Assembly: GCF_011801125.1 (NCBI RefSeq)
Contig: NZ_CP046171.1
Location: 744,001-808,000 of the forward strand
Direction of reading: 5' to 3'
Source: Nocardia brasiliensis
GTDB taxonomy: Bacteria > Actinomycetota > Actinomycetes > Mycobacteriales > Mycobacteriaceae
DNA: 64,000 bases
Shown: positions 1,966-25,533 of the stretch, piece by piece
Layout of the letters: every line of letters begins with the position of its first letter
Position numbering within the stretch: the stretch's first letter is position 1
Notes under the pieces: model-generated
What the model saw: the letters and a program-made list of their open reading frames with translations, nothing else
Databases searched by the model: none
Told to the model about the DNA's origin: nothing
Translations under genes and position numbers: made by a program

Positions 1966-1971
1966 CCAACC

Positions 1972-2708: not shown

Positions 2709-2798
2709 TAGTTCCCGGCGCTGTCCAAGTCACGAACGGTGGGTGAATGCCCGGTGCCGATGCCCGGCGTCGGTGTTACCGCAGGTAGCGCCCGACCG

Positions 2799-11298: not shown

Positions 11299-11303
11299 GG
11301 GTG

Positions 11304-11568: not shown

Positions 11569-11598
11569 TTGTTCATTGCGCCACCGATTGGCTACCAT
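11569..11598 (+). promoter_or_regulatory. Putative promoter for a leaderless micro-ORF
   Basis: TTGTTC (11569-11574) and TACCAT (11593-11598) are separated by 18 bases, a plausible sigma-70-type pair. The -10 element lies inside a small inverted repeat, GATTGG-7-CCAATC (11586-11604). An ATG follows 6 bases after the -10 element, the geometry of leaderless transcripts common in actinobacteria. Confidence 0.35.
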
Positions 11599-11604
11599 CC
11601 AATC

Positions 11605-11733
11605 ATGTTGGCTGGCAAGGTCTTTGGATTTGTAGGGGGTGCGTACCCCGAGCCCGTAGGGGTCCGCCCGGCGGGTGAGCGGGTGGGATGCGGGTGTCGG
11701 CCCGGGTGTGGGCCTGCCGGTCGACTCGGGTGA
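11605..11733 (+). CDS. Possible 42-residue Gly/Cys-rich peptide
   Basis: A short frame starts MLAGKVFGFVGGAYPEPVG and continues into a glycine-rich end with two cysteine clusters (CGCRPGCG). I do not recognise it. In its favour is the promoter-like element placed exactly as for a leaderless mRNA. Against it are its short length, the surrounding composition and the lack of any partner gene. It lies 230 bases past tRNA-Lys in a stretch that otherwise looks non-coding. Confidence 0.25.
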   Translation: MLAGKVFGFVGGAYPEPVGVRPAGERVGCGCRPGCGPAGRLG

Positions 11734-12030
11734 ACATCGCTGCGACGCTGGCGAATTGGGCGCCCGTGCGACGCCCCGCACTTGGTTGCGCAATGTTTGC
11801 TGTAACAGTAAACCTGGGTAGTCGGTTACCTGACTCGTCGGTTTGCCGCGTGTCGGATGGGGTTTCCGGGTACGGTGACAACTTGATGAATTCCGGAAGA
11901 ATCACCGGCCTGTTCGGGGATTCGGAATTCGACTTATCGCTGATGTGCCCGAACGTGTCGCGACCGGTCCGGCCGATCGTGGCTTCCCTGGAGACGACGC
12001 CGCAGGAGGCAGATCCGAGACATAGAAATG

Positions 12031-12062
12031 CCCGGGTGCGCACCCCCTGCAGCGCACCCGGG
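12031..12062. terminator. Hairpin terminator
   Basis: CCCGGGTGCGC (12031-12041) pairs perfectly with 12052-12062 over a 10-nt loop. No T-run follows. It could end any transcript entering from the 11.6 kb promoter and insulate the TetR gene. Confidence 0.55.
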
Positions 12063-12092
12063 CAGGAAAACTATACCAGCTGGTGTGTTTCA

Positions 12093-12141
12093 GGTTTTTC
12101 GCAAGTTTTCGTACCGAAAGTTTGAAACTGGGCGAAAACCC
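12093..12141. promoter_or_regulatory. Candidate TetR operator region
   Basis: TTTCG-TAC-CGAAA (12107-12119) is a perfect palindrome. It is flanked by GTTTTTCGC (12094-12102) and its near-inverse GCGAAAAC (12132-12139). The cluster lies about 100-150 bases upstream of the TetR start and is a candidate autoregulatory operator. It was not matched to a known consensus. Confidence 0.35.
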
Positions 12142-12239
12142 GGTTTGAAGTATTGATAAAACTCATAACTTCGCGCCAAGGGCCCGTTCCTTTGGGGGTG
12201 GCTGTTTGGCGGCGAGTAGGCTTCGGAGGCGTTTCGAGC

Positions 12240-12905
12240 ATGGCACGGCAGCAAGAGCGGGCCCGCCGGACACGTGCGGCGATTATCAGGTCCGCCGCCG
12301 TTGAGTTCGGGAAGAGCGGCTATGCCGCTGCATCGCTCAACCGCATATTGGAAGGGTCGCGTGCCACCAAGGGCGCCATGTACTTCCATTTCGATTCCAA
12401 GGAAGATCTCGCGCGTGCCGTCCTGGAGACGGCGGTCGAGCGCTACCGCGCCTCGGCCGAGCGTTGGCTCGCGCGAACGGATCTCGGACCCCTCGACATC
12501 CTGCACGGCATGATCGACGAGATGGCATTGCGGCTCGAGCACGACATCATCGTGCAGGCCGAATACCGATTGATCATCGAACCCGACTTCTATCGGGACG
12601 TGCAGACCGGTGGCGGGCGCATCCTCGGACGCGCCACCCGCGCGCTCGCCGTGCGCGCCATCGACCAAGGGCAACTGCGCGCGGGCGCGGACGCCGACCG
12701 CTTCACCCGCACCCTCGTCGCCGCACTGGCAGGCCAGCGCTACCTGGTCGACGCCCACGGCACGGGGATCGACCTGCGGACCCGATTCGAGGAAGCGCTC
12801 GAGGTCGTCATCGAGTCCATGGCCACCCCCGAATGGGCTGAGAAGTTCCGCAGCGACGGCTGGCGCACCCAAGCCCGCCTCGAAGAGCTCAGTTTGGGGC
12901 TTTGA
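12240..12905 (+). CDS. TetR family regulator, gamma-butyrolactone-receptor-like
   Basis: The 221-residue protein has an N-terminal TetR helix-turn-helix (RTRAAIIRSAAVEFGKSGYA, then RATKGAMYFHFDSKEDLA) and an all-helical ligand domain. The opening ARQQERARRTRAAII, the KGAMYFHF motif and the phrase ATPEWAEKF-like C-terminus resemble ScbR/ArpA butyrolactone receptors, and this is inference from pattern. No AfsA-type butyrolactone synthase gene lies nearby. ATG 12240 was chosen because GGAGG is at 12225-12229; the frame extends upstream without support. Repeated CGAAA elements upstream may be its own operator. The tRNA cluster follows. Confidence 0.88.
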   Translation: MARQQERARRTRAAIIRSAAVEFGKSGYAAASLNRILEGSRATKGAMYFHFDSKEDLARAVLETAVERYRASAERWLARTDLGPLDILHGMIDEMALRLEHDIIVQAEYRLIIEPDFYRDVQTGGGRILGRATRALAVRAIDQGQLRAGADADRFTRTLVAALAGQRYLVDAHGTGIDLRTRFEEALEVVIESMATPEWAEKFRSDGWRTQARLEELSLGL

Positions 12906-13000
12906 CCAGCCGGTTTGGTTAACGAGTCCGGTCTGTCATAAGCTAACCGGGCTCCCAACGGACAGCCGTTGAAGCCGGTTCCGGAGAAATCCGGAGGCGA

Positions 13001-13073
13001 GCCCCCTTCGTCTAGCGGCCTAGGACGCCGCCCTTTCAAGGCGGTAGCGCGGGTTCGAATCCCGTAGGGGGTA
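13001..13073 (+). tRNA. tRNA-Glu (anticodon TTC)
   Basis: A cloverleaf with acceptor GCCCCCT/AGGGGGT, anticodon stem CCGCC/GGCGG around loop CTTTCAA (TTC, glutamate) and T-arm GGTTCGAATCCC. First of a Glu-Asp-Phe tRNA cluster. Confidence 0.96.
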
Positions 13074-13102
13074 CGGTCTTCGGATCGTTGGAAGCACAGC
13101 AA

Positions 13103-13176
13103 GGCCCTGTGGCGCAGTTGGTTAGCGCGCCGCCCTGTCACGGCGGAGGTCGCGGGTTCGAGTCCCGTCAGGGTCG
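13103..13176 (+). tRNA. tRNA-Asp (anticodon GTC)
   Basis: A cloverleaf with acceptor GGCCCTG/CAGGGTC (one G-T pair), anticodon stem CCGCC/GGCGG around loop CTGTCAC (GTC, aspartate) and T-arm GGTTCGAGTCCC. It is 29 bases after tRNA-Glu. Confidence 0.96.
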
Positions 13177-13234
13177 CAAGTGAGCGCCGGAGCAATCCGG
13201 CGTTTCGCGTATGGCATTCAACTCGGGTGCCTGC

Positions 13235-13311
13235 GGCCAGGTAGCTCAGTTGGTACGAGCGTCCGCCTGAAAAGCGGAAGGTCGCCGGTTCGATCCCGGC
13301 CCTGGCCACCA
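13235..13311 (+). tRNA. tRNA-Phe (anticodon GAA), integration site of the element
   Basis: A cloverleaf with acceptor GGCCAGG/CCTGGCC, anticodon stem TCCGC/GCGGA around loop CTGAAAA (GAA, phenylalanine) and T-arm GGTTCGATCCC. The discriminator A is at 13308 and an encoded CCA at 13309-13311. Its 3' part (13267-13309) is repeated perfectly at 23904-23946, so the 3' half of this functional gene is probably element-derived. Confidence 0.96.
13267..13309 (+). repeat. attL, 43-bp direct repeat
   Basis: The segment from the anticodon loop to the CCA end of tRNA-Phe is identical over 43 bases to 23904-23946. Identity ends on both sides: C versus A before it, C versus T after it. This defines the recombination core. 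Confidence 0.92.
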
Positions 13312-13349
13312 AATCCCCTCACCAGAACCCCTGGTAGAGGGGATTTTTG
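13311..13349 (+). terminator. tRNA-Phe terminator carried by the element
   Basis: AATCCCCTC (13312-13320) pairs with GAGGGGATT (13337-13345), with an inner ACCAG/CTGGT stem, followed by a TTTT run. It lies just inside attL, so the element resupplies a terminator to the tRNA gene it disrupts. Confidence 0.85.
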
Positions 13350-13497
13350 CGTTCGTACCCGGGCCGGGCATCGTCCACTCGTTGACCTTGGTTGACCGCC
13401 GAGAACCGGGGCTTGGTGCACGCGGGGGGCACGGAGCTTGACGGCCGAATGTCGTGAGATGCGACACGGTTGTCGTAGGCGGTGAAAGACTGGGCGG

Positions 13498-13773
13498 ATG
13501 GAGACAGAGGCGGTTGGTGTAACCGACGTTGTCGAGGGAGACATCATTCGGGATCCTCTGGGCGCGGATGTCTGGCGGCAGGTCGTGCGCATCGGTGAAC
13601 CCGTTTCGGAGGTCAAACCAGACGGGTCGGGTGAGTACTGGACGGCGTACTACTTCGAGGGACCGATCGTGAAACCGATCCTCGACTACGACCCTGTGGG
13701 AAACGTCGTCGCGGGGTGGGATCGTTTCACCTTTCGCGACGATCAGCGGGTAGTTCGCCTCCGGAAGACGTAG
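13498..13773 (+). CDS. Hypothetical protein at the left end of the element
   Basis: A 91-residue frame (METEAVGVTDVVEGDIIRD, ending VVRLRKT). It is acidic, soluble and without recognised domains. The codon pattern looks coding (balanced residues, aromatic-rich centre WTAYYFEG), unlike neighbouring shadow frames. There is no strong ribosome site upstream. It is cargo of the integrated element, alone on the plus strand left of the HAD gene. Function unknown. Confidence 0.5.
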   Translation: METEAVGVTDVVEGDIIRDPLGADVWRQVVRIGEPVSEVKPDGSGEYWTAYYFEGPIVKPILDYDPVGNVVAGWDRFTFRDDQRVVRLRKT

Positions 13774-14354
13774 TGACGCACGAGGTTGCCGACTGGTCTT
13801 CCCCTGCTTCCTCATACTGGCCATCCCTGAGCGGAGGGAGGTCGTGTCAAGGGCGCTCTTTCCCTTGACTCGGCCGAGCGAGGTCAGACAATTGGGCCAT
13901 GAGGAGGCAGGGACTGCGCGACCGGTGGAGCCACCATCTCACCGCGGCTTCCCGGCATTCTCGTCATCCTCGGGGCGGGACCACAGCCAGTCACCCCGTC
14001 CGATGCCGGCCGATTCGCTTCGGAGTGCGGAGGTAGGTCGGGTACGGCTCCCGGCGTGCTCAGCACTATCCGGTTATTGCCTAAAGCGACCAGGAGTGTC
14101 CTGGAGTGACGTTGTGGGCGCATGCAGGCCCGCCGACGCGGTCGACGCGCCCAGGCGGCGCCTTTTCAGCCTGGCTGCGCGTCGTAGCGCGGCGGCGGGC
14201 GCGCATGCGCCCGCCGCAGGCGCTCTTGACTCTCAATGGCGGAATTCGGCAGCAACCGTTGTTCGTACGGTGCGTGCTGTTGTGACCGGAACGGGCTACC
14301 CGATCGGTTCCGGAGCAGACATCGTCGGGGCCGCTAGCGGGGCTCGGCTGCAGG
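13774..14354. other. Element left-arm non-coding region
   Basis: About 580 bases without a convincing gene. It contains a perfect 11-bp hairpin (14192-14202 with 14207-14217, loop GCAT) 138 bases beyond the HAD stop, which may terminate the minus-strand GntR-HAD operon. In elements of this type such gaps can also hold transfer loci; no such motif was recognised. Confidence 0.4.
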
Positions 14355-15017
14355 TCACACGAGAGCGTTGCGGACTTCAGCCATGTTGGCGATCAGCGCA
14401 TCTGGGCTGTACGGGCGGAAGCGATCAGCTTTCCCCGGCTTGTTCGCGAGTGCGATGACAGGGATTCGAGCCGCTCTTCCAGCTTCGATGTCGGAGAGCG
14501 AATCACCAACGAACACGCAGTTGTCGGAGATTGCGTGCAGTTCGCGTGTTGCGACGTTGAGCAGGTGAGGACTCGGTTTCAGCTGCGTGTAGTTGTTGGG
14601 CGTGCGACCGTAGACTCCCGCGATCGAGCTTCGAAGGCCATGCGCGGAGAGGTACGCATTGATCGCAACGACAGAGTTGTTGCTCACGACGGCGATCGTC
14701 CATCCATTGGCGTGGAGGTCGTGAATGAGGGCGGGGGTGTGCTCGGTGGGCTTGGCCGACGTGACAGCATCCAGCTCGAGTTCGGTGAACCTACGCTCAA
14801 TGCTGCTGGCCTGCGCAAGATTCCGGGACGCCGCATAGCGGAGGACCTCAAAGGGGTCGTGAGCGGCTGCGATGTCGGCACGAGCCGACGAATCTATGAG
14901 GGTTGCAAGTTCCTGCGCTACGGCGCGATCCGTGACGCCAGCGAAGACGGCACAGATCGGTCCGTCGAAGTCCAGCAGGAGGCACGAACGATCACGTAGG
15001 AGTTCGGTCAAGCTCAT
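14355..15017 (-). CDS. HAD family hydrolase (element cargo)
   Basis: The 220-residue haloacid dehalogenase-type phosphatase has motif I LLLDFDGPI with both catalytic aspartates, motif II VVSNNS, the motif III lysine in QLKPSPHLL and motif IV VFVGDSLSDIEAG. The cap region is helical, as in phosphoglycolate-type phosphatases. The start overlaps the GntR stop by four bases (ATGA), so the two form an operon. HAD hydrolases next to GntR repressors recur in actinomycete integrative elements; the substrate is unknown. A decayed homologue lies at 24300-24655, just outside the element. Confidence 0.9.
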   Translation of the reverse strand: MSLTELLRDRSCLLLDFDGPICAVFAGVTDRAVAQELATLIDSSARADIAAAHDPFEVLRYAASRNLAQASSIERRFTELELDAVTSAKPTEHTPALIHDLHANGWTIAVVSNNSVVAINAYLSAHGLRSSIAGVYGRTPNNYTQLKPSPHLLNVATRELHAISDNCVFVGDSLSDIEAGRAARIPVIALANKPGKADRFRPYSPDALIANMAEVRNALV

Positions 15018-15862
15018 GACGGTCGGTAGTCCCGTGCGACGGAAGTCCAGATGCTGTCGAACCAGATCTGGGACTGCTCGACGAACTGGCTGTCATTCGA
15101 GTCGGGGTCGGCGTCCTGGCCGTGCTCGAACAGGGTCGCGTCTTTGCCCATGAGATCCCAGACGGCGACCGATTCTCCGTCAAGTTCCAGTCGGTGTTCG
15201 CGGACTGGGTAGTAGCCGAAGAAGGCTTGCTCGCCGTTGAGGATGTAGAGCTTGAACAGGGGCACCGCAGGATACGAGCGGACCTGCGCGGTGGCGCTGG
15301 TAACGAGTCCAAGTGAGGCAAGTTCGTGGACGGAGTCCACGATTGCGGTGGTATGACGCTCCATGATGCGCGTTGCACGGCGGCGGAACGCCGGGCTATC
15401 GGTGAGGTCATCGGTCCGTGCTGGCAATGACCAAGGCATCGACGCGTCCGGCACCAACAGCCGCACTGTAAGCGACTCAGGCCGGAGCCGACCCTCCCGG
15501 ATACGGTCGAGCGGCTCCGCAATGGCACCGTGCAGTGTCTCCCCCGAGAACCCCGCGAAGTCGATAGTGACGGTGGTTGCTTCGAATGCGCGCTCAATGT
15601 GTCGTCGGAGCCCTACCGGGCGTTCTGTGCGCTCGCGAACGTAGACGCCACTCCCCTTCCTGGACACCACGAGCGACTCTTCGCGAAGTATCCGAATCGC
15701 CTGCTCAACAGTCGCTTTCGCGACGCCGTAGCGCTCAACAAGCTGCGGTCCAGATGGGAGCTTCTCGCCGGGCGCGAGTTTCCTGGTGAGGATGGCCGCA
15801 CGCAGCACGTTCGCGATTTGCTGCGAAGCGGGCCGAGGGTCGTCGGGATCGATGGCGTCCAT
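15014..15862 (-). CDS. GntR family repressor with UTRA domain, KorSA-like
   Basis: The 282-residue protein has an N-terminal GntR winged helix (QIANVLRAAILTRKLAPGEK, LVERYGVAKATVEQAIRILR) and a C-terminal UTRA ligand domain. In pSAM2 the GntR protein KorSA represses pra and so keeps the element quiescent; the divergent Pra-like gene here supports the same role. ATG 15862 is preferred over the TTG at 15892: a TATCCT box lies six bases upstream of it, suggesting a leaderless mRNA. A CCTAGG palindrome (15884-15889) lies over this promoter, consistent with self-repression. Confidence 0.9.
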   Translation of the reverse strand: MDAIDPDDPRPASQQIANVLRAAILTRKLAPGEKLPSGPQLVERYGVAKATVEQAIRILREESLVVSRKGSGVYVRERTERPVGLRRHIERAFEATTVTIDFAGFSGETLHGAIAEPLDRIREGRLRPESLTVRLLVPDASMPWSLPARTDDLTDSPAFRRRATRIMERHTTAIVDSVHELASLGLVTSATAQVRSYPAVPLFKLYILNGEQAFFGYYPVREHRLELDGESVAVWDLMGKDATLFEHGQDADPDSNDSQFVEQSQIWFDSIWTSVARDYRPS

Positions 15863-15883
15863 GCGCTCAGGATAGTCGATCTG

Positions 15884-15946
15884 CCTAGGCAACCCAGGAA
15901 CCTCTTGACCTACCTAGGGAGCATGCGTAGATTGAAGATACCTAGG
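15884..15946. promoter_or_regulatory. Three CCTAGG operators over divergent promoters
   Basis: CCTAGG occurs at 15884-15889, 15913-15918 and 15941-15946, spaced 29 and 28 bases. The first lies over the GntR promoter; the second and third surround the -10 element of the plus-strand promoter. The second and third share TACCTAGGGAG-type flanks. They are probable binding sites for the GntR repressor. Confidence 0.65.
15905..15933 (+). promoter_or_regulatory. Promoter of the Pra-like gene and transfer operon
   Basis: TTGACC (15905-15910) and TAGATT (15928-15933) are separated by exactly 17 bases, 48 bases before the start at 15982. A CCTAGG operator sits in the spacer. Confidence 0.75.
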
Positions 15947-15981
15947 GAGGCTGGGTAGCTTTCAATCGACAAGGAGCAGCA

Positions 15982-16455
15982 ATGGCGATCAAGAGGGGTC
16001 ACAAGTTCGAGATTCCGTTCCGGACGGCGTTTCCGCAGGGTCTGGTGTTGCTGGGCGAGATCTCGCAGGTGACGAAGTACAACCCGAATCCGAACGCGAC
16101 ACCGGAGCCGATGTTCGATTACGACCCGAAGACGGGGGAGGGTTCGGGGTTGCCGTTGTGGAAGGCGACGGTCACTGACCCGCACGAGGACAAGGCGAAG
16201 CGGGCGTCGTTCGAGGTCATCTTCGTGGCACAGGTGCAGCCAGTTCCGGCTACCGAGGAGATCGTTCCTGGTACCGGGATGCGGATGATCGAGCTGGAGG
16301 GCGTCAGCGCTGAGCCGAAGGTGATGGGTCAGGGCGAGTTCAAGTATCAGGGCTACACCTTCCGTGCGACCGGCATCAAGGGCGATACCTCCGGCGCCAA
16401 GCAGGCCCCGAACGATCCGGGTGCTTCCCGGCCCGCCGGTTCTAAGGCGGCGTGA
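15982..16455 (+). CDS. Pra-like activator of replication, integration and excision
   Basis: The 157-residue protein resembles, in pattern and position, the AICE proteins annotated as plasmid replication, integration and excision activators: AFPQGLVLLGEI near the start, GLPLWKATVTDP in the middle, a beta-rich core (VIFVAQVQPVP), then YTFRATGIK and a disordered Ala/Gly tail. In pSAM2, Pra activates the repSA-xis-int operon and is repressed by KorSA. Here it is divergent from a KorSA-like gene with shared operators. The ribosome site AAGGAG lies just upstream. The family call is from memory of motif order, so moderate. Confidence 0.65.
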   Translation: MAIKRGHKFEIPFRTAFPQGLVLLGEISQVTKYNPNPNATPEPMFDYDPKTGEGSGLPLWKATVTDPHEDKAKRASFEVIFVAQVQPVPATEEIVPGTGMRMIELEGVSAEPKVMGQGEFKYQGYTFRATGIKGDTSGAKQAPNDPGASRPAGSKAA

Positions 16456-17249
16456 TGAAGACGGCGGACCAGTCGGCGGGAATGCGGTGGGCGCGCTGGT
16501 CTGCCGTGGTCATCATCACGGTCATCGGGGTAGCCGCGTTCGTGCTCAGCTTCGCTGCGTTGCGTGATCTGGCGATTCTGGCCAACACTCCGAAGCGGTG
16601 GGCGTGGCTGTTCCCGGTGATCGTGGACGGCACGATCATTCAGGCGACCGTTGGCGCGCTGGTGCTGGCGAAGTCCCCGGAACGTCGTTGGTTCCTGTGG
16701 GTGCTGGGCACCGGTGCGATGGTCTCGATCGCGGGCAACTCGCTTCATGCGGTCGCGGCCGGCCGAATTCTGCCGGGTTGGGCTGCGGCGTTGGTGGCGG
16801 CGATCGCCCCGATTTCGCTGCTGGTCGACACGCATGGGTTGGCGGTGTTGTTCCGTGCCGCCCAACAGGATTCGGCCCCTGAGCCGGTCCCGGTGCCTGA
16901 TCCCGTACCGGTGAAGCCCCCGGCTGTTGCTCTGGTTCCCGCGTCAGTTCCTGCTCGCCGTAAGAAGGCGTCCACGCGTCGTGATCCGGACAAGGTTGCC
17001 CGAGCGGTGGCGATGCACGCTGAGGGTAAGAAGTTCGCTGAAATCGGTAGGGCGCTGGGCATTTCGGCCCAGACGGCGGCCAAGTACGCCAAGTCCGCTC
17101 CGGTCCCTGCCGCACAGCCGATGGCGGCCCCGGCCCCGGTTTCGACCCCTGTTTCTGCGCCTGTGGTGGCCGGTGTGCGGCCGGTGCCGGTGCGTTCCAT
17201 TCATCCCGTGCGGCCGGTGCAGCAAGCGCTGCCGATCACGGTTTCTTAG
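16455..17249 (+). CDS. DUF2637 membrane protein with C-terminal helix-turn-helix
   Basis: The 264-residue protein has four hydrophobic segments in its first 140 residues (WSAVVIITVIGVAAFVLSFA; WAWLFPVIVDGTIIQATVGA; FLWVLGTGAMVSIAGNSLHA; WAAALVAAIAPISLLVDTHG), the DUF2637 pattern found on actinobacterial plasmids and AICEs. A Pro/Val-rich linker leads to a small DNA-binding-like region (DPDKVARAVAMHAEGKKFAE, IGRALGISAQTAAKYAKS) and a low-complexity Pro/Val tail. It probably belongs to the transfer or spread apparatus; the role is not established. Its ATG overlaps the previous stop (TGATG). Confidence 0.85.
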   Translation: MKTADQSAGMRWARWSAVVIITVIGVAAFVLSFAALRDLAILANTPKRWAWLFPVIVDGTIIQATVGALVLAKSPERRWFLWVLGTGAMVSIAGNSLHAVAAGRILPGWAAALVAAIAPISLLVDTHGLAVLFRAAQQDSAPEPVPVPDPVPVKPPAVALVPASVPARRKKASTRRDPDKVARAVAMHAEGKKFAEIGRALGISAQTAAKYAKSAPVPAAQPMAAPAPVSTPVSAPVVAGVRPVPVRSIHPVRPVQQALPITVS

Positions 17250-17266
17250 ACAAGGAGTTGGTTTCG

Positions 17267-17572
17267 ATGGCTGAGAACAACGGTGCGGTGGTGTCGCTGG
17301 CGTTGCGTCAGCGGTGGACGGCCGGGATCGTGTTGCTCGCCGGTGTGGTGGCCTTGCCCCTGGCGCTGCTGCTGACGGTGGGTCGTGAACCGGGCGGGAC
17401 GGTGGCCACGGTCGCCCCTCGCGCGGATGGGTGCGTGATGTTCTGCGAAGACGCCCCGAAAGCGTCGTTCCGGGACGGCAACTGTGCTGAAGCGCCTCCG
17501 GGTATCAACTTCACGCCCTGGACGTGCGCGCCCCTGTCCACTGCTGCGGCGGCTCCGAAGGCGGTGCGGTGA
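17267..17572 (+). CDS. Small membrane-anchored element protein
   Basis: A 101-residue protein with one N-terminal transmembrane helix (AGIVLLAGVVALPLALLLTV) and an exported C-terminal part. Four cysteines (CVMFCEDAP, DGNCAEAPPG, PWTCAPL) could form disulfides. ATG 17267 is chosen because AAGGAG (17252-17257) is 9 bases upstream. The stop overlaps the next start (TGATG). No family is recognised; position suggests a transfer accessory. Confidence 0.7.
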   Translation: MAENNGAVVSLALRQRWTAGIVLLAGVVALPLALLLTVGREPGGTVATVAPRADGCVMFCEDAPKASFRDGNCAEAPPGINFTPWTCAPLSTAAAAPKAVR

Positions 17573-17994
17573 TGTCGGGGCAGGAGATGGTCAAGGCCGA
17601 GGGCTATTGGGTGCCGCGTAATCCGGCGTGCCGTATCGGGTTCCACATCAGCGGTACCCGTATCAAGGGCTACGGCGCACCCGGAGTCCGTTTCGTCACC
17701 GACCCATACGACGAGTTCGCGGGCCTGGTGGTGTTCACCCTGGGCGGGCATCACACCAAGGGCCGGATGCCGTTTCTGGCGATGAGCACCGACACCGCCG
17801 AGGAGCTGGTGCAGCTGCTGGCCGCTGCGGTGCGTGACGGGCGGATCGCCCAGGGTGCCGGGTTGGAGCCGATCGCGTTCCGTGACATCACCTTCGACGG
17901 CTGCACCTGCGCCGAGTGTGACGATGAAGTGGCCGCGCTGCTGGAGGCCGAGTACGACCCTGATCCTGAACCGGGTCCGGGGTGGTCACGATGA
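17572..17994 (+). CDS. Hypothetical element protein
   Basis: A 140-residue soluble protein (MSGQEMVKAEGYWVPRNPAC) with an alpha/beta-like core and an acidic end containing DGCTCAECDDE, a CxCxxC cluster that could bind metal. It is coupled on both sides: its ATG overlaps the previous stop and its TGA overlaps the translocase ATG. No known domain is recognised. Likely part of the transfer operon. Confidence 0.72.
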   Translation: MSGQEMVKAEGYWVPRNPACRIGFHISGTRIKGYGAPGVRFVTDPYDEFAGLVVFTLGGHHTKGRMPFLAMSTDTAEELVQLLAAAVRDGRIAQGAGLEPIAFRDITFDGCTCAECDDEVAALLEAEYDPDPEPGPGWSR

Positions 17995-19325
17995 GCGCGG
18001 TGTTGGGGGTGCTCGCCGTGGCGGGGTCGGTAGCGGTGCCTGCGGGCTTGATCTGGCTGGCGCGCCGGGATCTGCCGAGCGTGAAGAAGCCCAAGCCCCA
18101 GACGGTGGCACAGATCGTGGACGACGCTGAGCCTGAGTTGCGTACGGCTGTTGGGATTTTGGCTGATCCGTTGCAGACGAACCTGATGCTTGCCTCGCTG
18201 AAACTCGGGTCGGCCGAGGCTGGCTTCCCTCATGTCGAACGCTACGACTACACCCGTTACGGGCTCTCGGTCGACGTGGTGATGCTCGGTGGCCAGTCAC
18301 TCACGAACTGGTCGAACGACGAGGTATTGAACCAGTTCGCCACGTATTTGGCGGTGCCGAAGGTGACCGTGATGTCTCCGGCTCCGTCGTGGGTTCGTCT
18401 CCAGGTGAGGGTGTACGACACTCTCGTCGCCCCGGCAATGACGCCGGAGGTGATCCCCAATGGTGTGGATCTGGAGGCGGTCCCGACTGGTGTCACCGAG
18501 GACGGGGATACGTGGCGGCTGCGGGTGCTCTACCGGCACATCCTCATCGCCGGTGGCACCGACTCGGGCAAGGGCAGCGTGCTGTGGTCGATCGTGGCCG
18601 GCATCGGTCCAGCCATCAAGGCGGGCCTGGTGGACGTGCTGCTCGGTGACCCGAAAGGCGGCATGGAATTCGGGCGTGGTGAGGGCCGGTTGTGGACCGA
18701 TTTCCAGTGGACCGCCGAAGGCATCCTGGCCATGCTCACCGGGGCCGAGAAGGACATGCAGGAACGAGCGGCACGCTTCCGCGAAGCCGGTATCCGCAAG
18801 TTCGTTCCCACCACCGATGAGCCGCTGAAGGTGGTGATCATCGATGAGTACGCGGCCATGTCCGCCTTCGCCACACCCGAACAGGTGCGAGAAGGATTGC
18901 GGCTGATCGGGCTGATCCTGACCCAAGGGCGTGCGGTCGGCTACAGCGTGATCGTGGCCGTGCAGGACCCGTCGAAAGAGACGATGCCCAACCGGCAATT
19001 GTTCCCCATCCGGATCGGGCTGCGCCTGGACGAGCCGACGCAGAACGAGATGATCCACGGCAAGAGCGCCCGTGACCGGGGTGCACGGTGTGACGAGATT
19101 TCCGAACACACTCCCGGTGTCGCCTACGTCGGCCTGGACGGCACCAAGAGCTTTGTGCGGGTGCGGGCGTTCTGGATTCGGGACGAAGACGCTGACGCGA
19201 TCGTGGAAGCGTTCTCCCCGGCACCGGTAATTACCGGCCCCACTGAGGATTACAGCGGCTTCGACCCTGACGACCTCGGCGACGACGAAGAGGACAACGG
19301 GGATGCTGCGGGGGTGGCGGCATGA
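17991..19325 (+). CDS. FtsK/SpoIIIE-type conjugative DNA translocase (TraB/TraSA-like)
   Basis: This ATPase is expected to pump double-stranded element DNA into the recipient, the single protein AICEs need for transfer. The 444-residue protein has an N-terminal hydrophobic segment (residues 2-24), a linker domain to about 175, and an FtsK motor with Walker A GGTDSGKGS (188-196) and Walker B VVIIDEY (281-287). As in other AICE translocases I recall, the lysine is followed by Gly-Ser rather than Ser/Thr. It lies in the middle of the gapless operon and overlaps both neighbours by ATGA. Confidence 0.9.
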   Translation: MSAVLGVLAVAGSVAVPAGLIWLARRDLPSVKKPKPQTVAQIVDDAEPELRTAVGILADPLQTNLMLASLKLGSAEAGFPHVERYDYTRYGLSVDVVMLGGQSLTNWSNDEVLNQFATYLAVPKVTVMSPAPSWVRLQVRVYDTLVAPAMTPEVIPNGVDLEAVPTGVTEDGDTWRLRVLYRHILIAGGTDSGKGSVLWSIVAGIGPAIKAGLVDVLLGDPKGGMEFGRGEGRLWTDFQWTAEGILAMLTGAEKDMQERAARFREAGIRKFVPTTDEPLKVVIIDEYAAMSAFATPEQVREGLRLIGLILTQGRAVGYSVIVAVQDPSKETMPNRQLFPIRIGLRLDEPTQNEMIHGKSARDRGARCDEISEHTPGVAYVGLDGTKSFVRVRAFWIRDEDADAIVEAFSPAPVITGPTEDYSGFDPDDLGDDEEDNGDAAGVAA

Positions 19326-19648
19326 AGCGAGGATTCGTGACCGAGACACACGTGGTCATCTACTGCGACATGTGCGGGGACGTCTACACCGAAAACACTG
19401 GTGAATCCATCTGTTTCGATTCGACCCAGCAAGCGGTGTCGTATCTGCAACACCGCTCGGCCGGTGTCGGCTGGGTCTATGACGGTGACCGGGTGTGGTG
19501 CGACGGCTGCATGGCCGCTGATCACTGCGACCGCACCGGACATCAGTACCCCGAGCACTGGCAGATGACCGCACGCCTGCTCGGTGTGTCCACCCGTTCG
19601 CGCGCCTGCATGGTGTGCGGCATACCTGAAATCGAGGCCCTGTCATGA
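19322..19648 (+). CDS. Cys-rich small element protein
   Basis: A 108-residue protein with three CxxC pairs (YCDMCGD, VWCDGCMAADHCD, RACMVCGI), likely a zinc-binding fold. It overlaps the translocase stop by ATGA and the next start by ATGA. No named family is recognised. The tight coupling suggests it is made with the transfer proteins. Confidence 0.72.
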   Translation: MKRGFVTETHVVIYCDMCGDVYTENTGESICFDSTQQAVSYLQHRSAGVGWVYDGDRVWCDGCMAADHCDRTGHQYPEHWQMTARLLGVSTRSRACMVCGIPEIEALS

Positions 19649-19785
19649 CTTTTCACGACTACGCCGACACCACCGACGAATACGACCGCGACGAATTCGA
19701 CTCCGTCGTGCGCTTGCGTTCGGCCCGCCAACTCATCGATGACCGTTCCGTCCCGGCCTGGGACACCGAGGAGTGGGCGGCATGA
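19645..19785 (+). CDS. 46-residue acidic element protein
   Basis: A very short gene (MTFHDYADTTDEYDRDEFD, ending TEEWAA), strongly acidic in its first half. The case for it is positional: it begins in an ATGA overlap with the previous gene and ends in an ATGA overlap with the next. Function unknown. Confidence 0.6.
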   Translation: MTFHDYADTTDEYDRDEFDSVVRLRSARQLIDDRSVPAWDTEEWAA

Positions 19786-19922
19786 GCACCGAAGAAGCCC
19801 TGGAGTGCTGCGGGATGCCGATGTCGGTGGAGGCGGCCCCGTGGGACTGGCAAACGTTTACGTCGCTGGTGTTGCGCTGCTACGGGTGCGGGCACTGCGA
19901 ACCCTTCGATGAGGAGCTGTGA
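19782..19922 (+). CDS. 46-residue Cys-rich element protein
   Basis: A short gene (MSTEEALECCGMPMSVEAAP) with two cysteine pairs, ECCG and RCYGCGHC, likely one zinc knuckle. Both ends overlap neighbouring genes (ATGA and TGATG). Function unknown; probably a small nucleic-acid- or protein-binding accessory. Confidence 0.6.
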   Translation: MSTEEALECCGMPMSVEAAPWDWQTFTSLVLRCYGCGHCEPFDEEL

Positions 19923-20164
19923 TGAGCCCCAGGACTCGTCGTGAGTGGGCGTTGCTGGTCGGTCGGGAAGTACGGCCGTTGCTCAAGGCCCGCAACATCA
20001 CCGACGCCACCATGTACGCCTGCAACCTGAGCGCCCGCAACCGCGCCAAAGCCGTTGTCGTCTACCGCGATTCAGACACCCAAGCCTGGCGGCGCTGGAT
20101 CGATGACAAGCTCGTCCCCGTCCAGCTCGCGTTCGATCTACCCGGCAGAAAGACCCGATCATGA
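19922..20164 (+). CDS. 80-residue basic element protein
   Basis: A small basic protein (MSPRTRREWALLVGREVRPL, ending FDLPGRKTRS) without membrane segments. It is helix-rich and Arg-rich, so nucleic acid binding is possible. A GTG at 19919 in the same frame is an alternative start. The stop overlaps the next gene by ATGA. Confidence 0.65.
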   Translation: MSPRTRREWALLVGREVRPLLKARNITDATMYACNLSARNRAKAVVVYRDSDTQAWRRWIDDKLVPVQLAFDLPGRKTRS

Positions 20165-20790
20165 CCACGAAAACCACCGCTACGCATACCGATGCGCGCG
20201 AACAACTCTTCGAGGCCCTGTGCCTGCTGGTCTGGCAGCTGCTCAAAGCCGTGGCCGTGATCGTGTGGTGGGCGCTGCTGTTCCCGATGGTCTCGCTCCC
20301 GATCGGTGCTGCGGTCGCCGCCGGCCTTTTCCTCGGCTGGGTCGTCGGGGGTCTGGTCGCGGTGGGGTGGTTCGCGGGGATGGTGGCGTGGCGACTGTGG
20401 AGTCCACGAACCTTCGAGCGGGCCATCACTGCCCGGGCACGGACCCGGTTCCTGTCCTGGTGGCGTTACCGGTCCCGCTGGACCCGGCTTCTGGCCGCGT
20501 GCAAGCTCACCACCCCCAGCGACGGGTCGACGTTCGTTCCCCGGCTTCTCTCGGTCCAGATCGGCGCGTCCACTGATCGGGTGCGGGTGCGGATGCTGCA
20601 CGGGCACTGCCCCGCCGATTGGGAATCCCGCGCCGACAACCTGGCCCATGCCTTTAGTGCCTTGGACTGCCAAGTCCGCATCGCCGGTCCCGGCCTGGTG
20701 GAACTGCGGTTCCGCCGTGCCGATTCCCTCGCTGACCCGTTCGCGCTGCCCCCGGTCGACGGCGGTCGCTGGAGCAAGGAGACCATCTGA
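20161..20790 (+). CDS. Membrane protein resembling the N-terminal part of AICE translocases
   Basis: A 209-residue protein with two transmembrane helices (VAVIVWWALLFPMVSLPIGA; LFLGWVVGGLVAVGWFAGMV) followed by a soluble domain ending ELRFRRADSLADPF. That layout (two helices, Arg/Trp-rich linker, stalk-like domain with DRVRVRMLHG) resembles the membrane and stalk part of FtsK-type TraB proteins, but no ATPase follows. It may be a spread-type (Spd) protein or partner of the 444-residue motor. Its start and stop overlap both neighbours. Confidence 0.75.
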   Translation: MTTKTTATHTDAREQLFEALCLLVWQLLKAVAVIVWWALLFPMVSLPIGAAVAAGLFLGWVVGGLVAVGWFAGMVAWRLWSPRTFERAITARARTRFLSWWRYRSRWTRLLAACKLTTPSDGSTFVPRLLSVQIGASTDRVRVRMLHGHCPADWESRADNLAHAFSALDCQVRIAGPGLVELRFRRADSLADPFALPPVDGGRWSKETI

Positions 20791-22472
20791 TGAACACCGC
20801 CGAGAGTGTGAAGACGGGAGGGACTGCGGCCCAGCGCCGTGCCCTACCCAACCTGTTCGAGGTGGCCCAGGCCGCCGCCGAACAGTACGAGGTCTGCAAA
20901 CGCCCGATCGCGATGCGCGTCGAAGACCCCAAGACGGGCACTGTCACCTACGAAGGGTCACCGTGTAAGTCCACCATCGAGTCGGTGTGCCCGGCCTGCG
21001 CGAAAGCGAATCGGCTGCTGCGGATCGCTCAGTGCCGTGAAGGGTGGCACGCGGCAACCGAACTCGTTCCGGACAAGACCGACCCGACCGCAGTTCAGGT
21101 TGAATTGCTCACCGCGCGAGCGGATCTGGTGACCCAGTACCGGGCGGCGGTCGCTGAGGCGGATGAGGAGCTGGCGGCTGGGATCGTGGAGGTGATCCGC
21201 GACCTCGACGCACAGCTGCGCGAAACCGGCCTGCGTGGGCGTCTCCCGGCCCTGGACGCCACCGGCAAGGATCGGCGTCGACGCTCCACCAGGCGGCGTC
21301 AGGACGTGCCGGACCTGCCTCGCAGGAAGGTGTCCAAGCGCACGGTCGGTGAGCCGATCGGCGGCCACCTGTCCTCGATGTTCGTCACCCTCACCATGCC
21401 CGGCTACGGCAAGATCCGCCGCGACGGCGCGACCGATGCCAACGGTCAGGTCTGCTCGGATGGTTCCCCGGTCGACTTCGACAGCTACGACTACACCCGT
21501 GGCGCGCGCGACATCGTGTTCTTCTCCAAGCTGGTCGACCGCTGGATTCAGAACTTGCGTCGCGCGGTCGGCTACGAGGTGCAGTACTTCGCGACCGTGG
21601 AACCGCAGCGCCGTGGTGCACCCCACCTGCACATCCTGATCCGGGGCGCGATCTCGCGGGAGTTGTTGAAGCTGGTCACGGCAGCCACCTATCACCAGGT
21701 GTGGTGGCCGCACTTCAACCGCGAGAACCGTGTCTACGGCGGTGCTCATCAGCCCGTGTGGGATGCCAAGCGGGCCACCTTCATCGACCCCGAAACCCAT
21801 GCGCCACTGACCTATTGGGATGACGCGTTGGACACCCTCGACCAGGTCGACGACCTCGAACCCGCGCACGTGGTGCGTTTCGGTGCCCAGATGGACCGCA
21901 AACAGATCAAGGGCGTCATCGCGGAGAAGGCCGGACGCACCATCGGCTACGTCACCAAATACCTGACCAAGTCCATCAGCGAAATCGTCGAAGCCCACAC
22001 GGACCGTGCGGCCGAGCACTACGACCGCTTGCATGCCGAGCTTCAGTCGGTGCCGTGCTCGCCTCGCTGCGCGGTGTGGCTTGAATACGGCATCGTCCCC
22101 CAGGGCGCCAGCGACAAGACCGTACCGGGCCGCTGCAAGGGCAAAGCACACCGCCGAGACACCCTCGGCCTGCCCGGTCGACGCGTCCTCGTCTCCCGGC
22201 GCTGGTCGGGCAAGACCGTCCTCGACCACAAGCAGGACCGGGTCGATTTTGTTCGGCAACTGCTCGCCGACGCCGGCATTGACAAGCCCGACACGAGCCA
22301 CTACCGGGTGACTCCCGTCGAACCTGGCGACAAGTCCCGGCCCCTGCGTGAGCACCTGATCATGGGCGCGATCGCGCGGCGAACCACCTGGCGAGCGGAA
22401 TACCTGCGCGCTCAACTCGCGGCAGGCCCACCAGAGCCCCCAGAAACTTCGGCAATTCGGCAAGCGGCGTAG
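20790..22472 (+). CDS. RepSA-type rolling-circle replication initiator
   Basis: This initiator should nick the element origin and start rolling-circle replication of the excised circle. The 560-residue protein has an N-terminal cysteine set (C36, C59, C67, C70, C82) likely binding zinc, HUH-family motif I FVTLTMPG (198-205), the metal-binding HLH in PHLHILIRG (279-281) and motif III YVTKYLTKS with the likely nicking tyrosine at 387 or 391. Length and motif order fit pSAM2-like RepSA proteins. It follows the operon by TGATG overlap and precedes xis and int, the conserved rep-xis-int order. Confidence 0.9.
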   Translation: MNTAESVKTGGTAAQRRALPNLFEVAQAAAEQYEVCKRPIAMRVEDPKTGTVTYEGSPCKSTIESVCPACAKANRLLRIAQCREGWHAATELVPDKTDPTAVQVELLTARADLVTQYRAAVAEADEELAAGIVEVIRDLDAQLRETGLRGRLPALDATGKDRRRRSTRRRQDVPDLPRRKVSKRTVGEPIGGHLSSMFVTLTMPGYGKIRRDGATDANGQVCSDGSPVDFDSYDYTRGARDIVFFSKLVDRWIQNLRRAVGYEVQYFATVEPQRRGAPHLHILIRGAISRELLKLVTAATYHQVWWPHFNRENRVYGGAHQPVWDAKRATFIDPETHAPLTYWDDALDTLDQVDDLEPAHVVRFGAQMDRKQIKGVIAEKAGRTIGYVTKYLTKSISEIVEAHTDRAAEHYDRLHAELQSVPCSPRCAVWLEYGIVPQGASDKTVPGRCKGKAHRRDTLGLPGRRVLVSRRWSGKTVLDHKQDRVDFVRQLLADAGIDKPDTSHYRVTPVEPGDKSRPLREHLIMGAIARRTTWRAEYLRAQLAAGPPEPPETSAIRQAA

Positions 22473-22485
22473 GAGGCGAGCAGCG

Positions 22486-22704
22486 ATGGATATCGGTTCG
22501 GGATACGTGGATGTGCCGGGCGCAGCTGCCTACCTGGGCACAGGTGAGAGATTCATACGTCGGTTGGTCGCGGAACGTCGGATTGTGTTCTACAAGGTGG
22601 GGACTCATGTGCGGTTCAAGATCACAGACTTGGAGGCTTACGTGCAAGCCGGTCGGGTAGAGCCGATCGCGGTGCGCTGGAGCGGCGGCAGGGTGGTGGC
22701 GTAG
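22486..22704 (+). CDS. Excisionase (helix-turn-helix, Xis-type)
   Basis: A 72-residue winged-helix protein of the MerR/excisionase type: VDVPGAAAYLGTGERFIRRL is the recognition helix region and IVFYKVGTHVRFKITDLEAY the wing and final helix. It bends attachment-site DNA and directs the integrase towards excision. GGAGG (22472-22476) lies 9 bases before the start, and the stop directly abuts the integrase ATG. Confidence 0.9.
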   Translation: MDIGSGYVDVPGAAAYLGTGERFIRRLVAERRIVFYKVGTHVRFKITDLEAYVQAGRVEPIAVRWSGGRVVA

Positions 22705-23826
22705 ATGGCTCGCAGACGTTTCGGCAAAGTTCGCAAGCTGCCCTCTGGGCGGTACCAGGCATCGTTCATCGGACCGGACGGGCAACGCCAGAACGCACCG
22801 AACACCTTCCGCACCAAGACCGACGCTGATCGCTGGCTAGTGAAGGCCGAAGCGGATATCAGTAAGGGCACCTGGCTCGACGAGCAACTCGGCTTACAGA
22901 TTTTCCACGAGTACGCCACCGCCTACTTGAAAGAGAACCCGGACGTTGGTCGGCGGTGGGAAGAAACCTGCCTTCGGAACATGCGCCTGCACATGGCGGA
23001 AATTCGCGATAAGCCGTTGATCGCGATTACTGCACCGGTGGTGCGTAGCTGGTACGCGAATGCGATGGCAGGCACCGGAGGCAAGACCTCGATCCGGCAG
23101 TCGTACCGATTCCTGCGCGCGGTAATGAACCAGGCCAAGAGGGACCGGGCGATTCTGGTGAACCCTTGCATGATCAAGGGCGCAGGCTCGGACGGTGCCA
23201 AGGAACGCGGTATCGCGACGCCAGCGGAAGTGGCGGACCTGGTCGACAACATCACACCTCGCTACCGGGCGGCAGTCTTGATCGCAGCATGGTGCGGCCT
23301 GCGTCGTGGCGAAATCATCGGGCTGGCAGTCAAAGATGTGGACCTGGAGGCGAACGTGCTCTGGGTGCGGCGGAACCGGGTCGAGATGCTGGAGTCCGAC
23401 GAAGCCTTCGACAAGGATCCGAAGACCGATGCGGGCAAGCGGCCGGTCGAGATCCCGCCACATCTCCACCCCTACCTTGTCGACCACAAGGACAAGTGGG
23501 CGGGCAAGGAGTGGATGTTCATGGGCCGCGATGGGCAGAGGATGCGCGGCAATGCGGCCTATCAGGCATTCGTCCGTGCCCGGAACAAGGTCGGCGTCGA
23601 TGTGAGCTTCCACGACCTGCGGCATACCGGCCAGACACTGGCTGCGGCGACCGGTGCGACACTGGCGGACCTCAAGAAGCGGATGGGGCACGCCTCGAAT
23701 GCCGCTGCGCTTCGGTATCTGCACGCGGTCGATGGCAGAGATAGGGAGATCGCCGACGCCCTGAGCAAGCTCGCCGCCCGGGGAAATGCGGTAGGGCTGC
23801 CTCGATCCATCGTCGTCAAGCACTGA
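22705..23826 (+). CDS. Tyrosine-family site-specific integrase
   Basis: This recombinase inserts the element into, and removes it from, tRNA-Phe. The 373-residue protein has an N-terminal arm-type DNA-binding domain (GRYQASFIGPDGQRQNAPNT), a SAM-like core-binding domain (about 65-160) and the catalytic domain with Arg200 (CGLRRGE), the HxxR motif H303/R306 (FHDLRHTG), H329 (MGHAS) and the nucleophile Tyr338 (LRYLH). All catalytic residues are present. The gene ends 77 bases before attR, the usual arrangement. Confidence 0.95.
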   Translation: MARRRFGKVRKLPSGRYQASFIGPDGQRQNAPNTFRTKTDADRWLVKAEADISKGTWLDEQLGLQIFHEYATAYLKENPDVGRRWEETCLRNMRLHMAEIRDKPLIAITAPVVRSWYANAMAGTGGKTSIRQSYRFLRAVMNQAKRDRAILVNPCMIKGAGSDGAKERGIATPAEVADLVDNITPRYRAAVLIAAWCGLRRGEIIGLAVKDVDLEANVLWVRRNRVEMLESDEAFDKDPKTDAGKRPVEIPPHLHPYLVDHKDKWAGKEWMFMGRDGQRMRGNAAYQAFVRARNKVGVDVSFHDLRHTGQTLAAATGATLADLKKRMGHASNAAALRYLHAVDGRDREIADALSKLAARGNAVGLPRSIVVKH

Positions 23827-23903
23827 AAGGGCCAGGAAATGCTAGGGCACGCTGGGGGCACGGACCGTGAAAATTGCTATCTGAGCTGCGGTTTTGTGCC
23901 TGA

Positions 23904-23946
23904 CTGAAAAGCGGAAGGTCGCCGGTTCGATCCCGGCCCTGGCCAC
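23904..23946 (+). repeat. attR, 43-bp direct repeat
   Basis: An exact copy of the 3' end of tRNA-Phe (compare 13267-13309). No 5' tRNA half precedes it, so this is a target duplication and not a tRNA gene. Confidence 0.92.
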
Positions 23947-23952
23947 TCGGAA

Positions 23953-24008
23953 ACGAGGGAACCCTGCGTGCGGAGAGCGCACGCGTTGGTTCCCTCGTCT
24001 TTTTGTTT
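23953..24008 (+). terminator. Intrinsic terminator just outside attR
   Basis: ACGAGGGAACC (23953-23963) pairs with GGTTCCCTCGT (23988-23998), with an inner GCGTGCG/CGCACGC stem, followed by TTTTTGTTT. It occupies the same place relative to the 43-bp repeat as the terminator at 13311. It is either the original tRNA-Phe terminator or one left by an older element. Confidence 0.85.
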
Positions 24009-24734
24009 GTGGGGTGCAACCCCACACCCGCCCGGAGGGCTTCGCCCCCGGACCCCCGGCTGCCGTAGTTGATGCCCGGCTGCCGTAGATGAGCTGTGGT
24101 TGGTTTCGCCTCCGTTGTTAGCGGTTCCTGGGTAGTTCGTGGTTGCGATGGTGGGTTGGTGGAGGTCAACCCTTGCGCCACCTTTCGGCTTTGCGCGGCT
24201 CTGTTGACCGTGAGCGAGCTGGTTGATGGCGGTGTCTGGTTGGCGGGCGGTGTGGCTGGTGCTTGGCGCGGCCGTAGATGAGCCGTGGTCGGTGCCGTGG
24301 GCTGGAAGTGGCTGCGTTCCATCGGATCCGGGCAGTGGGCGCGTGAGCGCGTGAGCGCGCAACTTTCTCTGGTCGGTTCGCGAAGGCGACTACAGGGATT
24401 TGGGCTGCGTGCGCCGCTTCGATGTCGGAGACGGAGTAGCCGATGAAGACGCTGATGTCACCGCGGGCGTTCAGGTCATTCATGGCGCTGCACAGAAGGT
24501 GCGGATCGGGCTTCAGCCGGGTTGGGGTCGTGGGCGTGCGACCGGGGTTCCGACCACACATCTGCGGAGCCCGTGGGCGGTGGCAGGTGTCGATGGCGGA
24601 GATGGAGCTATTGCTGACGACACCAATCGCTCGCCCCTCCGCGATGGGGGAGTATGGGGGTGCGGGTTGGGCTGCTTGGTTGTTTTCGAGGTTTTCCGGG
24701 ATCTGCTTTCCACTACTCAGGAGGAATGAGATCG
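24009..24734. other. Decayed region right of the element
   Basis: About 725 bases with no intact gene. It holds a HAD pseudogene (24300-24655, minus strand) and a short direct repeat, GCCGTAGATGAGC(T/C)GTGGT, at 24082 and 24271. The ribosome site AGGAGG for the next gene is at its end. Confidence 0.6.
24300..24655 (-). pseudogene. Remnant of a second HAD hydrolase gene
   Basis: Minus-strand translation gives AIGVVSNSSISAID, then after a frameshift AHGLRRCVVG, then back in the first frame RLKPDPHLL and FIGYSVSDIEAAHAAQIPVV, FANRPEK. Each block aligns in order with the intact element HAD protein (AVVSNNSVVAIN, AHGLRSSIAGV, QLKPSPHLL, FVGDSLSDIEAGRAARIPVI, LANKPGK). The N-terminal half with motif I is missing, the motif IV aspartate is changed (GYSVSD for GDSLSD) and the C-terminus is degenerate. 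It is therefore a dead gene fragment. Confidence 0.8.
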
Positions 24735-25127
24735 ATGGTGACTATTCGGAACTTTTTGTGGGTTGTGGGGGTTGGGGCCGGGCTGGTGGTTGGGGTGGGG
24801 CCGGCTTCGGCGGCGGCGGACAGTATCGAACTGAGGGGGGTGGGGCCGGGGAATGTGGGGGTTGATTACAGCTGTGCGGCTTCATCCAGGGTGGTGGAGA
24901 TCGGGGTGATGGTGGGGGAACCGCAGGCCGAACAGGCGGCGGCCGCGGGGTCGGAGAGGCGTGTCGTCTGTGACGGGACGCCGCAGTCGGCGGTGGTTGT
25001 GGTGGCAGGCGTGGATGGTGCGGCCGAGCCGATCAAGAGGGGCACGACGGTGCAGGTGCGGATCGCGTTGGTCGATGCCGACGGGGCGGTGGTGGTCGGG
25101 CAAGCCAAGTTGGTCGAGTTGGCGTAG
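24735..25127 (+). CDS. Small secreted protein
   Basis: A 130-residue protein with a Sec signal peptide (FLWVVGVGAGLVVGVGPASAAA) and a beta-rich mature domain of about 100 residues. Two cysteines (DYSCAA, VVCDGT) could form a disulfide. ATG 24735 gives normal spacing to AGGAGGA (24719-24725); the in-frame ATG at 24726 is too close to it. No family is recognised. A very strong hairpin ends the transcript 19 bases later. Confidence 0.75.
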   Translation: MVTIRNFLWVVGVGAGLVVGVGPASAAADSIELRGVGPGNVGVDYSCAASSRVVEIGVMVGEPQAEQAAAAGSERRVVCDGTPQSAVVVVAGVDGAAEPIKRGTTVQVRIALVDADGAVVVGQAKLVELA

Positions 25128-25145
25128 TGACGCGGCTGGTCGGTT

Positions 25146-25206
25146 GATCACCAGGTAATGGTGGCGGCATCGGTCGAGAGGCTCCCGCCACCATTACCTG
25201 GTGATC
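25146..25206 (+). terminator. Perfect 22-bp hairpin terminator
   Basis: Positions 25146-25167 pair perfectly with 25185-25206 around a 17-nt loop. It lies 19 bases after the secreted-protein stop. No T-run follows. Confidence 0.7.
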
Positions 25207-25374
25207 GGTTGTCCAGTACGTGGAATCCGGCGTCGCCGAGGGGATTACGTGCGAGGCGGGGGGTGCCGGTCGGTGGGGAGGTTCTCTGTGGAGTGAAGGG
25301 CGAGGTCATGGGGGTGTGGCCGGACGGTGTCTAGGATCGGGGGCACTGGCCGGAGGTTTCGGAGGGGCGTGACC

Positions 25375-25533
25375 ATGGTGGGCAACATCGTGATCTTCGT
25401 GGTGGTCGTCGGGGTTCTGCTGGTGGTCTGCGGGCTGATTCTGTGGTCGGTGCGGGCGGGATCGGTGCGGATCGAAGTGGTGCCGCGGAATCCGCCGGAA
25501 GAGTCTGCCGATCCGGACAACGAAAGCCGCTGA
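25375..25533 (+). CDS. Small single-span membrane protein
   Basis: A 52-residue protein: one hydrophobic helix (IVIFVVVVGVLLVVCGLILW) followed by a basic stretch and an acidic tail (PEESADPDNESR). GGAGG (25361-25365) is 9 bases upstream of the ATG. No family is recognised. Confidence 0.6.
   Translation: MVGNIVIFVVVVGVLLVVCGLILWSVRAGSVRIEVVPRNPPEESADPDNESR

Follow-up and report, generated by a model that had tools for sequence, protein, structure and literature searches.

Among the actinomycete integrative and conjugative elements (AICEs), pSAM2 of Streptomyces ambofaciens and pMR2 of Micromonospora rosaria (NC_006910.1) offer the closest points of comparison for the locus described here. The repSA, xis and int genes of pSAM2 form an operon of their own that is activated by Pra, and pra lies downstream of korSA (PMC3218068, PMC8584621). 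Its initiator RepSA nicks a double-strand origin (dso), the replicon has been assigned to the pC194 family via the nick site, and the Nudix protein Pif provides conjugal immunity (PMC3218068). In the literature on Nocardia AICEs, we found no paper whose title or abstract opening describes one, which is not proof of absence. Here we analysed a 64,000-nucleotide stretch of Nocardia brasiliensis DNA (the window, to which all coordinates refer), covering positions 744001-808000 of a 7.95-Mb genome in one contig, where an initial annotation made from the sequence alone had noticed a complete-looking AICE in a tRNA-Phe gene. We consider it highly likely that this is an intact RepSA-type AICE with the control, origin and transfer scheme proposed below. 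To that annotation we add a candidate origin, operator-like sites, a HAD gene, two small open reading frames (ORFs) and a relic past the right end.

The element is bounded by two 43-bp repeats, the attL core at 13267-13309 and the attR core at 23904-23946 (both on the plus strand), which are identical, as first reported, and lie 10,637 bp apart from repeat to repeat. The repeat corresponds to the part of tRNA-Phe that begins in the anticodon loop and stops one base short of CCA. This gene, tRNA-Phe(GAA), was located by ARAGORN and Rfam at 13235-13311 on the plus strand, with its encoded CCA on the element side; an Rfam scan of 11000-25500 returned only tRNAs at the gathering threshold. The site is empty in four relatives (L132-L135), in which the counterpart of 13001-13309 shows 100% identity and runs straight on into sequence resembling the right flank (from 23904) with 78.5-92.2% identity. 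When the two flanks of the window were joined by script, they gave a single 331-base match to one of these relatives (L134) at 96.1% identity, indicating that the insertion was precise and added 10,637 bp.

The tRNA gene at the four empty sites is 75 nt long without an encoded CCA, and the gene in the window is 77 nt long with CCA. The left end of the element supplies this CCA along with a hairpin that runs into T residues; as read from the sequence, it restores the 3' end of tRNA-Phe. The same left end is 72-76% identical over about 105-124 bases to sequence downstream of tRNA-Phe in three other Nocardia loci, at which no element gene was found. We had considered the terminator AATCCCC..GGGGATT after tRNA-Phe as a mark of the element and dropped it, as it is also present at loci without a detected element gene. 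A possible integrase arm site at 13418-13435 (plus strand) pairs with 23847-23864 at 17 of 18 positions. The label is kept at this strength because the same pattern search found a similar pair in only one of the five relatives at the same site (L123, and none in L122, L124, L125 or L126).

The genes for transfer, replication, excision and integration are read on the plus strand toward attR. RepSA, a rolling-circle initiator (20790-22472; PF20199, E=1.7e-98), is followed by the excisionase Xis (22486-22704; HTH_17, 3.6e-10; TIGR01764, 3.3e-13) and a tyrosine integrase (22705-23826; Phage_integrase PF00589, 1.3e-19). Upstream of them lies a TraB-like FtsK/SpoIIIE motor (17982-19325; PF01580, 4.8e-9; PHROG 1358, 1e-27), the single FtsK-type motor of the element, with Walker A and B motifs. 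The resulting order TraB-RepSA-Xis-Int-attR confirms the rep-xis-int block next to attR, with Int adjoining the att site outside the rep-tra interval. Together with the repeats, the tRNA call and the empty sites, these families bear out the complete-looking AICE. Motif searches by script found GGTDSGKG (Walker A) and VVIIDE (Walker B) in TraB, HLH and YVTKY in Rep, and RRGEI and HDLRH in Int. The script patterns missed the GH..Y tyrosine of Int and motifs III-IV of the HAD protein, which are legible by eye in the translations as GHASNAAALRY and GDSLSD. The earlier statement that all catalytic residues of integrase and initiator are intact is thus consistent with the motifs found by script, and for the integrase tyrosine depends on reading by eye. 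The Pfam matches of the scanned proteins include no relaxase, VirB4 or coupling protein family, and no search dedicated to these was made.

The run, plus-strand throughout, begins with a Pra-like activator (15982-16455), a DUF2637 membrane protein (16452-17249; DUF2637, 1.8e-13; C-terminal HTH_23 at 8.5e-4, below the cut-off), a small membrane protein with one hydrophobic stretch (17258-17572; homologue in L095 and L151) and a protein of unknown family without a Pfam match (17560-17994; homologue in L095 and L129). Between the motor and RepSA, five small ORFs overlap end to end across 19322-20790 (19322-19648, 19645-19785, 19782-19922, 19919-20164 and 20161-20790). Two of them, each of 46 aa and sharing a 4-base overlap with each neighbour, occupy the seemingly empty 19649-19918. 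Some of these labels weigh against our reading of the gene set. The motor scores 3.2e-8 against NCBIfam plasmid_TraB, below the cut-off, and the designation Pra-like stands on position and 30% identity only. This protein has no match in Pfam, NCBIfam or PHROG; by tblastn it is 29.9% identical to the product of a pMR2 gene that is annotated as 'transcriptional regulator' and holds the pra position there, and it has homologues in many RepSA elements. In the NCBIfam scan of ten element proteins, the family cut-off was passed by Xis alone, and the HAD protein was marginally over one subfamily cut-off (TIGR01549, 24 vs 23.3).

From pra to int, 13 ORFs follow one another at spacings of -13 to +13 bases. 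The largest gaps are 13 bases (RepSA-Xis) and 8 bases (DUF2637 to the small membrane ORF), in agreement with the near-continuous overlaps noted at the outset. It is plausible that the run from pra to int is one long transcript, which would fit the ORF overlaps. The element shares with pSAM2, which we compared by its description, RepSA-Xis-Int, a KorSA-type GntR regulator, Pra and FtsK-type transfer. By contrast, pSAM2 has the separate repSA-xis-int operon, pra downstream of korSA and Pif as a Nudix protein. The contrast with pSAM2 drawn in the initial annotation agrees with these accounts, but it does not set the element apart from pMR2, in which pra, an FtsK-type gene, a DUF2637 gene, rep, xis and int also follow in the same direction with short gaps. 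Because pMR2 has such a comparable run, the layout is a known one and not unique. In pMR2, too, the regulator faces pra and a second gene overlaps behind the regulator; RepSA is 44% and Pra 30% identical. Unlike in the window, however, the gene behind the regulator is annotated as a glycosyltransferase instead of HAD, DUF2637 comes after the motor rather than before it, and the gaps in the run reach about 250 bases.

The integrase is about 33-34% identical to mycobacteriophage integrases, which raises the alternative of a prophage or another genomic island with a RepSA-like gene. Against it, the motor, Pra, RepSA, Xis and Int stand in AICE order, and a PHROG scan of ten element proteins gave no match described as a structural phage gene. 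On these two grounds we rejected the prophage reading, to which we give almost no credence.

On the minus strand, a GntR regulator (15014-15892; Pfam GntR, 2.2e-15) faces pra. Its family and this position fit the KorSA-like repressor proposed earlier. Overlapping its gene is that of a 220-aa HAD-type phosphatase (14355-15017, minus strand; Pfam HAD_2, 4.8e-17). At the gap between the GntR gene and pra, a pattern search found three CCTAGG sites in 15884-15946 (at 15884, 15913 and 15941, without strand), spaced 28-29 bases apart. The 64-kb window has six copies of CCTAGG (5.4 expected by chance), of which three fall within these 63 bases, and the element holds no others. The GntR ORF was called from a TTG and in this form includes the first site; a later ATG start, like that of L124, would put that site upstream of the gene. 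A promoter-like pair, TTGACC-17-TAGATT (15905-15933), extends across the middle site. The element of N. brasiliensis IFM 10847 (L095), with a GntR protein 99% identical, carries these three CCTAGG sites as well, with no further copy in 18.8 kb, and L124, with a GntR protein 78% identical, has four at the same place. CCTAGG is absent from the GntR-pra gap of L151, which has a different GntR protein, and from the vicinity of pra in L129.

These observations make the CCTAGG sites probable operators of the GntR protein. Two results speak against this assignment. Promoter-like pairs occur at chance level (2 found vs 1.8 expected) in the promoter and terminator scan, which was used solely to note the pair above. 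In addition, among 17 GntR rows, the window included, at least two CCTAGG within 75 bases of the start occur in only 7, with one copy in 3 and none in 5; the remaining 2 are fragments of one gene and were not judged. In several rows without CCTAGG, visual inspection picks out repeats of the CTAG or ATATGC type.

The other noncoding feature is a conserved block at 13978-14256 (plus strand), between orf91 and the HAD gene, which ends with CTTGAYYYYNWATRGCNNANTTCRGCA and was defined by an nhmmer profile as the probable dso region. Single-sequence folds of homologues place a hairpin (14186-14224, plus strand) directly 5' of a nick-site-like motif, CTTGACTCTCAATGGCGGAATTCGGCA, found by pattern search at 14225-14251 (plus strand). 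The profile matches 49 of 69 further RepSA loci: 47 of the 53 from Nocardia and, weakly, 2 of the 16 that belong to other genera or have no assignment. Where orientation was checked, block and RepSA share a strand. Of 49 loci lacking RepSA, a single one is matched (L177, E=5.5e-5). In this survey L088 and L127, as well as L087 and L136, are the same places counted twice. The Nocardia RepSA loci without a match are L071, L100, L107, L119, L120 and L129, and in L129 the motif lies just beyond the stretch profiled. Of 150 Nocardia genomes, 66 contain the CTTGAYYYYNWATRGCNNANTTCRGCA pattern and none contains its reverse. Among the matches listed, 59 of the 66 motif-bearing genomes belong to the 80 with RepSA (Fisher p=6e-16, with no correction for kinship), and 80 of 114 motif sites lie upstream of a same-strand RepSA at a median of 7.0 kb; for four RepSA genes that are split, the second fragment was omitted from this site table. 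Folding of the homologues, with DNA energy parameters loaded only where the module offered them, used 37 distinct sequences that passed coverage, strand and length filters, of which L075 lacks CTTGA. In all 36 others the predicted stem ends no more than 8 nt from CTTGA, and 31 of the 36 fold better than their shuffles by more than 1 standard deviation (median z -2.3).

We take the hairpin followed by CTTGA to resemble a pC194-type nick site. With the block, motif and hairpin, their co-occurrence with RepSA and the dso nicked by RepSA in pSAM2, the block is probably the double-strand replication origin, situated near attL. Before excision it would occupy the end of the element away from repSA, and circularization would bring it close to int. 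Several counts, each among the matches listed, tell against this assignment: the motif occurs without a RepSA match in 7 genomes, 21 of the 80 RepSA genomes lack it, and 29 of the 114 sites have no RepSA within 20 kb on their contig, with 5 more in another arrangement. The RNAalifold consensus on the origin alignment is also weak, because stems of varying sequence and length make for a poor alignment, and the hairpin rests on the single-sequence folds. A structured and conserved block that is present in TraB-bearing elements too could instead be a clt locus acting in transfer, or encode an RNA. We regard this as unlikely, since the block is kept beside RepSA without a TraB-like gene (for example in L082, L086-L088, L093, L109, L124, L128 and L152), no Rfam family is found at the block at the gathering threshold, and a hairpin followed by CTTGA suits a nick site of the pC194 type.

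Under the scheme that we favour, the GntR protein would bind the three CCTAGG sites in the resting state and silence its own gene as well as the pra promoter. Once repression is relieved, a single transcript from pra to int would yield Pra and the transfer proteins along with RepSA, Xis and Int. The last two would then excise the circle, RepSA would start rolling-circle copying with a nick at the hairpin-CTTGA origin, close to what had been the left end, and the FtsK-type motor would move double-stranded DNA into a neighbouring cell. The HAD phosphatase, presumably co-produced with the repressor, might play a part in conjugal immunity like that of pSAM2 Pif; this is a guess from its position and the weakest step of the scheme. 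With both ends and the empty site mapped, together with the probable origin and operators, this clean Nocardia AICE makes excision, nicking and repressor binding directly testable.

The element is probably mobile. The tRNA array is present in all 150 Nocardia genomes, with a poor match in G109. In a sample of 53 other distinct tRNA-Phe loci that we picked, not at random, from these genomes (54 rows, as L168 repeats L124), a gene from the family of this integrase occurs at 5, and none is found within the stretch covered at the other 48; the element is thus not fixed in all relatives, the outcome that the initial annotation had named as contrary to its claim. Integrases at least 65% identical are encoded at eleven further places in the 150 genomes: five at tRNA-Phe (L122-L126), three at tRNA-Val(CAC) (L127, L128 and L130), one at tRNA-Pro (L136), and two (L129 and L131) with no tRNA in the stretch fetched. 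The integrases of L127, L128, L130 and L136 are 67-80% identical to that of the window, yet their elements sit at tRNA-Val(CAC) or tRNA-Pro. Both repeat copies are present in four of the five tRNA-Phe relatives, whose elements measure 9,293, 14,587, 6,028 and 6,041 bp by repeat spacing; in L126 a second copy was not seen. L125 (oriented 1162-7203) is a 6-kb tRNA-Phe element with the same integrase family and no RepSA match, and it encodes two HTH-bearing proteins of unknown kind.

Outside attR, 24288-24666 (minus strand) holds half a HAD gene and origin-adjacent-like sequence. Its segment 24325-24666 covers the latter half of another HAD gene (47% identity, E=5e-24, residues 95-209), and 24288-24340 resembles the sequence just past the L151 origin. 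This stretch, absent from the empty sites compared, is debris of an earlier similar element about 0.3 kb into the flank. It may be a product of simple tandem accretion, but ordinary flank occupies 23947-24068; such flank returns at about 24645. A short GC-rich sequence at 24006-24059, within the first of these flank stretches, has further copies close to other tRNA-Phe genes in Nocardia and at other places in the genome. With such a relic alongside, the resident could be an AICE that has its complete gene set and no longer moves. We find a silent resident distinctly improbable, as the repeats match exactly, the main ORFs are uninterrupted and the five other Nocardia tRNA-Phe loci carry related integrases in elements of differing length.

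Relatives of the intact AICE are mosaic. The IFM 10847 element (L095) matches in GntR (99%), HAD (93%) and RepSA (95%), whereas its integrase is only 27% and its Pra 55% identical, indicating a different integration module. A second AICE in the same genome as the window (L151 5014-15863, G000:C1 about 13013-23862) lies in tRNA-Ile, with a 43-bp repeat formed by the 5' portion of that gene. It is alike in Pra (97%), RepSA (87%), DUF2637 (83%), TraB (77%) and the origin block, but its GntR protein is similar over 63 residues only and its integrase and site are different. A third RepSA element, about 6 kb long (L152 3805-9815, G000:C1 about 1349804-1355814; tRNA-Cys, repeats 5,969 bp apart), has no TraB-like gene. 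Three RepSA elements in one genome, two with near-identical Pra and differing repressors, offer a case for studying coexistence and mutual waking or carrying, and cross-talk between such elements has been raised as a question for Frankia (PMC3218068).

No TraB-like gene is present in the stretch covered at 23 of 70 loci, in some because of contig ends: at least six of them break off no further than about 4.2 kb upstream of RepSA (L092, L096, L107, L115, L120 and L121), and L125 is without RepSA. Frankia elements of such a kind have been called remnants or mobilizable elements (PMC3218068). The 6.0-kb tRNA-Phe element L124 encodes GntR (78%), HAD (49%) and Int (79%) proteins, has the origin block, RepSA and Xis, and lacks a TraB-like gene. 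A speculative and rather doubtful extension is that the GntR-HAD pair and CCTAGG form a portable immunity cassette that sets compatibility groups in Nocardia, with motor-less RepSA elements that bear this cassette at the same tRNA-Phe site, such as L124, being satellites that wake together with a full AICE and travel by its means; the HAD enzyme would then act like Pif in the recipient. The gene content of L124 supports it, as does the finding that, of 16 genomes encoding a close homologue of the GntR protein (E<=1e-30), 12 have a HAD homologue in the adjoining position. Against it, the motor-less elements may simply have decayed, 9 of 21 genomes with a HAD homologue (E<=1e-20) have it elsewhere without this GntR, and, among the matches listed, only 5 of the 12 GntR-HAD pairs have RepSA within 20 kb.

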